Source: Bacilli bacterium
GTDB taxonomy: Bacteria > Bacillota_I > Bacilli_A > ML615J-28 > CAG-698
Length of the DNA stretch: 36,023 nt
Direction of reading: 5' to 3'
NCBI GenBank assembly: GCA_918272565.1
Contig: CAKJYW010000002.1
Span: 108,266 to 144,288, forward strand
Positions 34,630 through 36,023 of the stretch are shown piece after piece. How positions within the stretch are numbered: position 1 is the stretch's first letter; every line of letters starts with the position of its first letter. A model generated the notes under the pieces. It saw nothing but the letters and a program-made list of their open reading frames with translations. It was not told the DNA's origin and searched no databases. Position numbers and translations under genes: made by a program.

Positions 34630-35610
34630 CTACTCCTCCTCATTAACCTTAGGTAAAGCCTTAATCAGAGTCTCTAAATTCTCTCTCATAATGATTAAAT
34701 AAGTAATACCATCTTTTAATTCTTGTGTTGTGATTGTTCCTAAATGATGAAGGCTAAGTTCACTAGCATCAAGTTCTTTTAAGTATTGATCAAACATCGC
34801 TGATTTAGTTTCATTTTTTGTTGAAATGATGTACTTAATGTGGGCTTCTTTTGCTTGACTTACCTTTTCTAAGAACTCTTTTGTTCCTACTTCATTACTT
34901 TCATTATCGTTAAGTAATTTAATTCTATTAATTCCATAACGATAAGTCCAATAAGCGTAAGCATCATGGTCAACCATAATTGTCTTATTTAAGATGTTCT
35001 CATCACTCAACGCTTCAATAAATTCATCATTTAAAACTTCTAATTCTTTTATTAATTCACTAGCATTAATTCTAAATAGTTCTTCTCTATCAGGATAAAT
35101 TAACACTAATTCTTCAAGCATCGCTTCAGTCATCTTAATCATATTAATTGGATCTAGCCAAACATGAGCATCATATATACTATGCTCATCTTCTTTTGCT
35201 CCGCTTTTTGTGTCTTCTACTCCATGAGAATGACTTCCATCAAGCTCAACTAGATCAACATAATTACTTAATTCAACGCATTTTACGTTTTTAAATGTGG
35301 AAGTTAAAGCGTTAGTAATAAAAGGTTCTAGTCCTAACCCAACATAAAAGATAACCTTGCTTTCAGTCATTGAAACAATTTGCTTAGGAGTAGGCTCATA
35401 ATCATGAACCTCAGCTCCTCTTGGATAAATAGTATCAACAGTAATCTCGCTCATTTGTGGGTCAAGTGGATCAACTTTAACGATTTGTGTTGCAATATAT
35501 TCTAAAGGATATACTGTAACATAAATATCAGCGCTCTTATTTTGTTTACATCCTACTAAAGCTAGCAACATACAAGCAATAATAAATATTAATATTTTCT
35601 TAATTTTCAT
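34630..35610 (-). CDS. Metal ABC transporter substrate-binding lipoprotein (ZnuA/TroA type)
   Basis: About 326 residues. The lipobox ALVGC follows the hydrophobic segment ILIFIIACMLLA, so it is a lipid-anchored binding protein. Cluster A-1 features follow: VTVYPLEYIATQI, PRGAEVHDYEPTPKQIV with a metal His, a His-rich stretch (SHSHGVEDTKSGAKEDEHS), DAHVWLDPINM, and VDHDAYAYWTYRYGI. These fit Zn or Mn binding; the His-rich loop favours zinc. No permease or ATPase gene is adjacent. ATG 35610 is taken; a GTG at 35619 would add three residues and neither has a strong ribosome site. Confidence 0.92.
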   Translation of the reverse strand: MKIKKILIFIIACMLLALVGCKQNKSADIYVTVYPLEYIATQIVKVDPLDPQMSEITVDTIYPRGAEVHDYEPTPKQIVSMTESKVIFYVGLGLEPFITNALTSTFKNVKCVELSNYVDLVELDGSHSHGVEDTKSGAKEDEHSIYDAHVWLDPINMIKMTEAMLEELVLIYPDREELFRINASELIKELEVLNDEFIEALSDENILNKTIMVDHDAYAYWTYRYGINRIKLLNDNESNEVGTKEFLEKVSQAKEAHIKYIISTKNETKSAMFDQYLKELDASELSLHHLGTITTQELKDGITYLIIMRENLETLIKALPKVNEEE

Positions 35611-35623
35611 TTTCTTCACGTAT

Positions 35624-35658
35624 AATTAATTAAACAATTATTATTTATTTAATTAATT
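35624..35658. repeat. 11-bp inverted repeat upstream of the metal-binding lipoprotein gene
   Basis: AATTAATTAAA and TTTAATTAATT separated by 13 bases, directly before the gene. It could be a metalloregulator site, but is very AT-rich and does not match the Zur or MntR boxes I know. Confidence 0.4.
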
Positions 35659-35703
35659 GACTCCTTTCATTTGATTTTGGTTATTTCATCCAGTTATAGA
35701 TGA

Positions 35704-35709
35704 TATAAT
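35704..35709 (+). promoter_or_regulatory. -10 element of the IS110 non-coding RNA
   Basis: Perfect TATAAT; 17 bases upstream only a weak TTATTT is seen. The predicted start (about 35715) coincides with the first base of the closing helix of the predicted RNA. In IS621 the -35 is supplied by the other end when the element circularises. Confidence 0.6.
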
Positions 35710-35713
35710 AAAT

Positions 35714-35882
35714 TGCACTGTGGATCTTTCTCTGTTTTTTTAAGGCACTATTTGACCTTTCTGAGGTGATTACTACCACAGTCTTTTTTCTAATGTTAAT
35801 TCGGTTAATTAGAGCACTATTGACTCTTTATGATGAACGTGAATACATGATTAGAGAACCTTCTGTGGATGACTCAGTGCAT
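35714..35882 (+). ncRNA. Candidate IS110 bridge RNA
   Basis: About 168 bases between the -10 and the recombinase. TGCACTG (35714-35720) pairs with CAGTGCA (35875-35881) as a long-range closing helix. ACTGTGG (35717-35723) can alternatively pair with CCACAGT (35776-35782). A hairpin CTAA..TTAA-TTCGG-TTAATTAG sits at 35790-35812. Two loop regions share a parallel sequence, GCACTATTTGAC at 35745 and GCACTATTGAC at 35814, reminiscent of the paired target- and donor-binding loops described for IS621. Size and position fit; no search was run. Confidence 0.62.
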
Positions 35883-35908
35883 AAATATATTTTTTGGAGG
35901 TGTTGCAC

Positions 35909-36023
35909 ATGACATTTTTTGTTGGCATAGATATTGCCAAGTACAAACACGATTGCTTCATCATGGATGAAGAGGGTTGTGTTATTAGAGATTCTTTCTC
36001 TTTTTCTAATGATTCAAGTGGTT
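35909..36023 (+). CDS. IS110-family transposase/recombinase (5' fragment)
   Basis: First 38 codons only. MTFFVGIDIAKYKHDCFIMD carries the DEDD-fold opening strand with the first catalytic Asp in GIDIAK and the H-D that follows, typical of IS110 recombinases. GGAGGTG lies seven bases before the ATG. The remaining catalytic residues and the serine domain lie outside the window. Confidence 0.9.
   Translation, partial: MTFFVGIDIAKYKHDCFIMDEEGCVIRDSFSFSNDSSG

Follow-up and report, generated by a model that had tools for sequence, protein, structure and literature searches.

A putative bridge RNA of an IS110-family element, predicted to read the start codon and Shine-Dalgarno sequence of its target genes

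The locus

The window, a stretch of 36,023 nucleotides from a Bacilli bacterium (GCA_918272565.1, contig CAKJYW010000002.1, positions 108,266 to 144,288), ends within an insertion sequence of the IS110 family, and its last base is the end of contig C2 of its own genome. The element begins with the two-base core CA (35617-35618, + strand), next to the start of a znuA-like gene on the minus strand. It continues with a left end, a candidate bridge RNA (35714-35881, +), the ribosome-binding site GGAGGTG (35896-35902, +) and the first 38 codons of the recombinase (35909-36023, +; ATG at 35909), where the contig end truncates the gene. We propose that this RNA would address the element to the start codon and Shine-Dalgarno sequence of genes. 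We give this overall reading, which rests on sequence comparison, a probability of about 0.9.

The 38 amino acids encoded by the last 115 bases of the window match Pfam DEDD_Tnp_IS110 (PF01548, E 3.7e-7), and no further piece of this domain was found in the same genome. The middle of the element, roughly 0.9-1 kb judged from relatives, is missing from the assembly. The initial annotation had recognised an IS110 bridge RNA upstream of the recombinase, and besides the ribosome-binding site it had correctly located an extended -10, TGATATAAT, in a region that is conserved in relatives (35701-35709, +), TGCACTG (35714-35720) and CAGTGCA (35875-35881). Conserved pairing and four covarying guides bear this identification out, and positions 35690-36023 very probably comprise an IS110-family bridge RNA and the start of its recombinase.

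Relatives and boundaries of the element

Of 150 genomes searched with blastn, 12 had matches, among them the window's own genome, and several of these matches were just 26-60 bases long. An exact 23-nt scan of genome contigs and a search of plasmids found no match. A profile built from three complete recombinases yielded the best 80 of 214 loci from GTDB genomes and one from IMG/VR. The working set comprised 88 loci, of which 73 were used in the left-end tests; L059, L078, L096 and L023 were removed by hand for an unreliable left-end call, and the remaining exclusions concerned loci with no left end found or too short a flank. Right-end tests covered 64 to 74 loci, with exclusions for similar reasons. 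L021 was inspected and kept outside the tests; the guide tests also included L016, whose guide strings were taken from its own sequence.

About 80 related elements, mostly in Bacillota, carry the same RNA. Going by the titles, Bacilli, Erysipelotrichaceae, Lachnospiraceae and further Firmicutes make up most of the hosts; Smithella is one of a few outside these groups. In a comparison of 84 distinct sequences, the stretch ahead of the recombinase could be aligned along the full length of the RNA in almost every one. Full-length recombinases have 386-394 amino acids with two exceptions among 81 sequences; the catalytic D, E, D and D are present in all 81 and the serine in 80, the residue roles being taken from the available part of the IS621 paper PMC11208158. 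Both relatives tested match the NCBIfam IS110 model NF033542, and the L017 recombinase matches the solved IS621 and ISCro4 chains. The DEDD domain and the Tnp domain with its serine are thus seen in the relatives, the window itself holding 38 codons. One locus, L016 (1969-2270, G042:C4), carries a left end and RNA that are 91% identical and no recombinase. In this copy the sequence just past the ribosome site gives way directly to the right end, of which a few bases at most remain. The copy sits between a start codon and AAAGGAG and is an RNA-only derivative.

Sequence comparison establishes the boundaries. Identical or nearly identical copies occupy different places in Kineothrix alysoides (three copies) and in Oribacterium sp. 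P6A1 (four), and their common sequence starts with TCACGTATAAT and ends with TTTGTCACCTC. When guides and ends were compared across the set, the two-base core was CA and in some elements CT or TT. The left end is the core followed by CGTATAAT, the right end is TTGACT..ATAGTTTGT followed by the core, and the CCTC beyond this core belongs to the target. The start at about 35690 that had been annotated initially has to be moved to the core CA. A left boundary near the RNA's own -10 was rejected, since multi-copy genomes and aligned left ends place it some 90 nt to the left of that point. The window's core and recombinase ATG are 292 nt apart. The right end is mostly found about 90-130 nt after the recombinase stop codon in relatives, so that the left end is the longer one.

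Structure of the RNA

By pairing, the RNA is about 168 nt long; its ends are deduced from the terminal helix P1, not mapped. The window RNA alone folded moderately better than its shuffled versions (z -2.1, matched by 5 of 200 shuffles). For the consensus fold, RNAalifold was run on 40 RNAs chosen for diversity from 83, and it returned 21 pairs in five helices. Across these RNAs 95.2% of the cells were paired, and 12 pairs had two-sided changes. Pairing is conserved among homologous copies: 56 cells were changed on both sides in comparison with 16.3 in shuffles, and none of 500 shuffles was as high, a result tilted in the structure's favour since the same data were used for alignment and structure. 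Slid versions of the consensus structure had 27-45% of their cells paired.

In the consensus the ends of the RNA pair, P2 closes the target loop, and a hairpin stands at the end of each loop. The 5' strand of P1, TGCA (35714-35717, +), pairs with 35878-35881 and has two-sided changes in all four pairs. The 5' strand of P2, CTGTGG (35718-35723, +), pairs with CCACAG at 35776-35781 (99.6% paired, one two-sided change). The end pairing TGCACTG/CAGTGCA, as first described, holds for TGCA/TGCA; its CTG belongs to the P2 helix. P3 (35742-35759, +; consensus helix 4) forms the tip of the target loop and P4 (35811-35827, +; consensus helix 5) that of the donor loop. They contain the two GCACTAT-TGAC motifs, which are present inside 35742-35759 and 35810-35828 as annotated and which had been mistaken for the informative loop sequences. 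As guides these motifs were rejected, being the tips of P3 and P4, whose stems covary. CACTAT is peculiar to the window copy, and the nearest relative, L016, has ATTAT and TATTT at those places.

Some of the pairing has alternatives. The stem TCTAAT/ATTAGA, which would close the donor loop, forms when the window RNA is folded alone and is absent from the consensus. A further CTGTGG at 35863-35868 could take the place of the 5' CTGTGG as the partner of CCACAG. The idea that CCACAG and the 3' CTGTGG form another conserved helix was weakened by the alignment (87.4% paired, one two-sided change). In L068 all three CTGTGG/CCACAG copies are altered together. The alternative partners are possibly a switch between two folds.

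Guide segments match the element ends and the flanks

Four segments of the window RNA, all on the + strand, can be compared with DNA. The right donor guide ACGTGAA (35837-35843) is complementary in 7 of 7 positions to TTCACGT at 35615-35621, across the left boundary. The left donor guide GGTTAAT (35803-35809) matches 6 of 7 positions of the right end AGTTAAT on contig C39 of the same genome. In the target loop, the left guide CTGTTTTTT (35732-35740) places TGT opposite the start codon and then TTTTT opposite TTTCT, and the right guide GAGGTGA (35763-35769) is complementary to T[CA]CCTC.

The four segments of each usable locus were compared with its own DNA and with DNA reshuffled among the loci. 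For each of the four guides, none of 20,000 permutations reached the value obtained with its own DNA. The left target guide scored 5.78 with its own flank compared with 4.53 (z 11.4; 73 loci, 9 nt, best of three registers), and control registers shifted the opposite way gave z 0.5. For the right target guide the values were 6.95 and 5.12 (z 13.1; 66 loci, 9 nt), with the first six bases exact in 50 of the 66 loci. When this guide was permuted within loci sharing the same donor guide, the difference persisted (6.95 compared with 5.92, z 7.9). The right donor guide matched 6.47 of 8 positions against 5.52 (73 loci, z 9.5). The left donor guide matched 6.64 of 7 against 5.82 (74 loci, z 12.9), its first four positions being narrowed by the motif used in the right-end search. 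Moreover, there are compensated variants of guide and DNA, e.g. in L065, L089, L095 and L062.

The donor guides covary with the element's own ends and the target guides with its own flanks, and pairing of all four with this DNA, in the manner of IS621, is predicted. The complementarity of the loops to donor and target, which the initial annotation had proposed to look for, is found in all four guides. Its bridge RNA interpretation is supported; the target had gone unrecognised.

The target is a translation-initiation site

Read in the sense of the gene, the right flank is GAGGTG, GGAGATG, GGAG, GGAGTG, GGAGAA or GAAAG. A match of at least 5 nt to the extended Shine-Dalgarno sequence was present in 61 of 70 right ends, compared with 281 of 5000 random 9-mers. 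To the left of the core, CAT was found at 2-11 nt in 63 of 73 loci (1029 of 5000 random positions), and some start codon 2-13 nt from the junction in 66 of 73, with ATG in 63. An open reading frame (ORF) of at least 60 codons, or running to the contig end, opened 4-12 nt from the junction in 54 of 73 loci, compared with 221 of 3000 random positions on a random strand. These counts of Shine-Dalgarno sequences, CAT and ORFs at the junctions indicate that the element inserts inside the Shine-Dalgarno sequence with its left end towards the gene.

The left target guide is hypervariable and the fastest evolving part of the RNA, and it is this part that matches the flank. It contains UAU in 51 of 73 loci and UGU in 4. 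The three registers with a signal are those that place UAU opposite a CAT 4, 5 or 6 nt from the core. When the guide was aligned on CAT, the next five bases matched in 3.35 of 5 positions compared with 2.00 (z 10.6; 55 loci with CAT at 4-7 nt). In the same 55 loci, the best single register aligned on the core gave z 6.1. In our reading, the start codon sets the register of the left guide, and there is some play between guide and core. A strict register rule would not fit the Kineothrix copies, where one guide goes with three different spacers.

By sequence, this element lineage very likely aims at the start codon and the Shine-Dalgarno sequence, and the target is the new part of our reading. 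The recombinase's own GGAGGTG-TTGCAC-ATG (window 35896-35911) also looks like the target site.

Insertion site of the window copy

The window copy splits the Shine-Dalgarno sequence of the znuA-like gene, a name that we presume from the sequence of the gene and not from a search. Its left target (35608-35616, minus strand) consists of the start codon, CAT on the + strand and ATG on the minus strand, and a 6-nt spacer to the core. The ORF starting from this ATG has 326 codons. The right end lies outside the window; the right-end pattern has one exact match in the same genome, near the end of contig C39. This terminus encodes the final 32 amino acids of a recombinase, after which come the right end AGTTAAT, the core CA and CCTCTATCATTC. 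It is probably the right end of the window element, and the window's left donor guide GGTTAAT fits it.

When the two flanks are joined, the reconstructed pre-insertion site tttgaatgatagaggtg|AAGAAAATGAAAATT consists of a stop codon, a Shine-Dalgarno sequence, a short spacer and the ATG of the znuA-like gene. The ORF that ends at this stop codon directly precedes the znuA-like gene in genomes G006, G008, G011, G012, G017, G021 and G023. In others, such as G001, G004, G005, G010 and G019, about 0.8 kb lies between the 166-amino-acid ORF and the znuA-like gene. Uninterrupted leaders in six relatives have GGAG-, AGGA- or AAGGA-type sites.

An Rfam scan of the window returned no RNA family at the bridge RNA region. 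The sole Rfam family above cut-off in the window was the bacterial small SRP RNA RF00169 (24211-24302, minus strand, 42.9 bits).

Promoters and the left-end module

Joining the right and left ends creates the sequence of a promoter, TTGAC-17 bp-TATAAT (or TATTAT), in 60 of 64 junctions. In the window copy, TATAAT (35621-35626, +) would combine with the TTGACT of the C39 right end, also at a spacing of 17 bp. This promoter would exist solely in the circle. The extended -10 at 35701-35709 is a second -10 and stands directly ahead of the RNA.

An inverted repeat that can form a hairpin (35624-35658) follows the core and folds better on the inward (+) strand. It covaries in 36 relatives, with 34 two-sided cells compared with 11.4 in shuffles. 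Past the hairpin stands the conserved TCCTTTCT, the window version of which is TCCTTTCA. The conserved CTCCTTTC at 35661-35668 (minus strand) reads GAAAGGAG towards the znuA-like gene and resembles a Shine-Dalgarno sequence. Read towards the target gene, TCCTTTCT is AGAAAGGA, which we take to be complementary to the 16S tail. In L019 (about 2340-2500, G116:C79), a remnant reduced to the left end, the hairpin, AGGAAGGA and the first RNA bases immediately precedes the ATG of an intact ORF. A search for left ends in 8 named genomes gave 15 places, all spanning at least 253 of 284 query bases.

Alternative explanations and proposed mechanism

The region directly upstream of the recombinase ribosome site is highly conserved, as would be expected of a leader that regulates recombinase expression, an attenuator or a mask of the ribosome site, and that has no guide function. 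A regulator, however, would not covary with the far end of the element or with the chromosomal flanks of each copy, and the fastest evolving part of the region is the one that matches the flank; we consider such a leader most improbable. It is also improbable, if a little less so, that the guides are real and the position before genes reflects survival, the element preferring AT-rich intergenic DNA with a CACCTC-like site. Insertions within genes would be selected against, and all our loci are survivors. But the right target guide coincides with the Shine-Dalgarno sequence, and all its variation stays within that sequence; the left guide has UAU or UGU in 55 of 73 loci and matches best when aligned on the start codon. 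Several observations nevertheless weigh against the targeting reading. The permutations leave some relatedness among loci in place, CAT at 2-11 nt is missing in 10 of 73 loci, and the Oribacterium loci L081 and L085, which have one guide in common, show a weak match to their flanks. The register of the left guide to the core varies by 0-3 nt, which is not described for IS621 in the available passages of PMC11208160 and PMC11208158. Finally, the right flank of the window copy is on another contig, and the link between C2 and C39 is inferred.

Two further proposals concern the left end. Its own Shine-Dalgarno sequence AGAAAGGA might serve the gene whose site was split, with the hairpin bringing it near the start codon. 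TCCTTTCT is exact in 50 of 73 left ends, with a mean conservation of 0.91 compared with 0.46 over the next 31 columns. With the hairpin looped out, the median distance from AGAAAGGA to ATG is 14 nt (51 loci), and the L019 remnant retains this part before an intact ORF. However, 14 nt is a long distance, and in 395 genomes of the class no left-end remnants were shown: the 4 places found, in 2 genomes, comprise one with a full-length recombinase and three that run into the end of the fetched stretch. In addition, the hairpin is better on the inward strand although the outward strand was expected (mean -12.1 compared with -10.2 kcal/mol, inward lower in 47 of 60 hairpins). Pairs of G and U numbered 55 of 796 inward and 13 of 758 outward in the 60 hairpins. 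With this greater stability and four times as many G-U pairs, the hairpin has apparently been selected in the inward RNA, and we regard the service to the split gene as doubtful. The same strand bias suits another proposal, in which the hairpin and the following pyrimidine stretch silence read-in transcripts, and junction transcripts, starting inside the 5' arm of the hairpin, escape. The junction -10 is indeed located at this arm. On the other hand, the window copy is without a T-run after the stem and the conserved TCCTTTCT is left unexplained, so this silencing can be put forward tentatively.

Under the preferred bridge RNA reading, the donor loop would pair with both ends of the element in its circular form, the left donor guide binding the right end and the right donor guide the left end. 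In the target loop, the right guide, GAGGUGA, would pair with the strand opposite the Shine-Dalgarno sequence, and the left guide would pair with the start codon and the few nucleotides that follow it. Circle and target would then be joined at the CA (or CT, TT) core by the DEDD/serine recombinase, which would place the element inside the Shine-Dalgarno sequence, its left end towards the gene. We infer from these sequence patterns that the RNA is transcribed, associates with the recombinase and guides the reaction. If a guide RNA recognises the start codon and ribosome site, the element lands just in front of genes and not inside them.

These results suggest a mobile element addressed by two near-universal gene signals, which would reach sites before many genes without breaking coding sequences. 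A broader claim seems rather unlikely to hold in full: that the bridge RNA of this IS110 lineage reads translation-initiation regions as a class, through a Shine-Dalgarno guide and a fast-evolving, start-codon-anchored guide with a flexible distance to the core, and that the left end offers its own Shine-Dalgarno sequence AGAAAGGA, which keeps the gene translated. The set would be a natural bridge RNA family with a readable target code, dozens of related RNAs each standing beside its matching site. It also offers material at hand for working out how targets are recognised, including how strict the guide-core register has to be.

Comparison with known systems

In the literature covered, we found no IS110 element described as aimed at ribosome sites; such elements may appear in supplementary target lists, subscription papers or bioRxiv. 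Within the accessible text of PMC11208160, 'start codon' is absent and 'ribosom' occurs twice, the passage displayed concerning tRNA; in that of PMC11187229, the single 'ribosome binding' passage is about a cargo gene.

As far as the available parts of PMC11208160 and PMC11208158 describe IS621, the element resembles it in having the RNA in the left end upstream of the recombinase, the target loop ahead of the donor loop, a circle junction and the DEDD plus serine residues. The guide strands also fit the IS621 rule given there, by which the 5' side of a loop goes with the bottom strand and the 3' side with the top strand (PMC11208160). Unlike IS621, the RNA has no separate 5' stem-loop and its own ends pair. 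The core is mostly CA, also CT or TT, whereas that of IS621 is CT, and the target is the start codon plus the Shine-Dalgarno sequence, with a variable distance between left guide and core. The recombinase has about 390 amino acids compared with 328 in the solved chain. Among solved chains, ISCro4 (structure 9t56) is the best sequence match of the L017 recombinase (E 5.1e-11); two separate stretches alone align, and the comparison is by recombinase, not by RNA or target.

The seekRNA of IS1111 and ISEc21, in the accessible part of PMC11187229, is likewise a non-coding RNA that picks the target, with a junction promoter in the circle. Its targets there are attC, REP sites and short linear sites, none of them a ribosome site. 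In ISEc21 the RNA is upstream, as here, whereas in the IS1111 group it is usually downstream. The layout of the present element is not that of the IS1111 group, a test that the initial annotation had named: its long non-coding region lies upstream of the recombinase, and no such region lies downstream. Its organisation agrees with the IS110 group. The left end, longer than the right (292 nt compared with mostly about 90-130 nt), holds a structured RNA of about 168 nt, within the 150-250 nt of that group; the donor loop matches both ends across the core, the target loop matches both flanks, and the junction forms a promoter by sequence.
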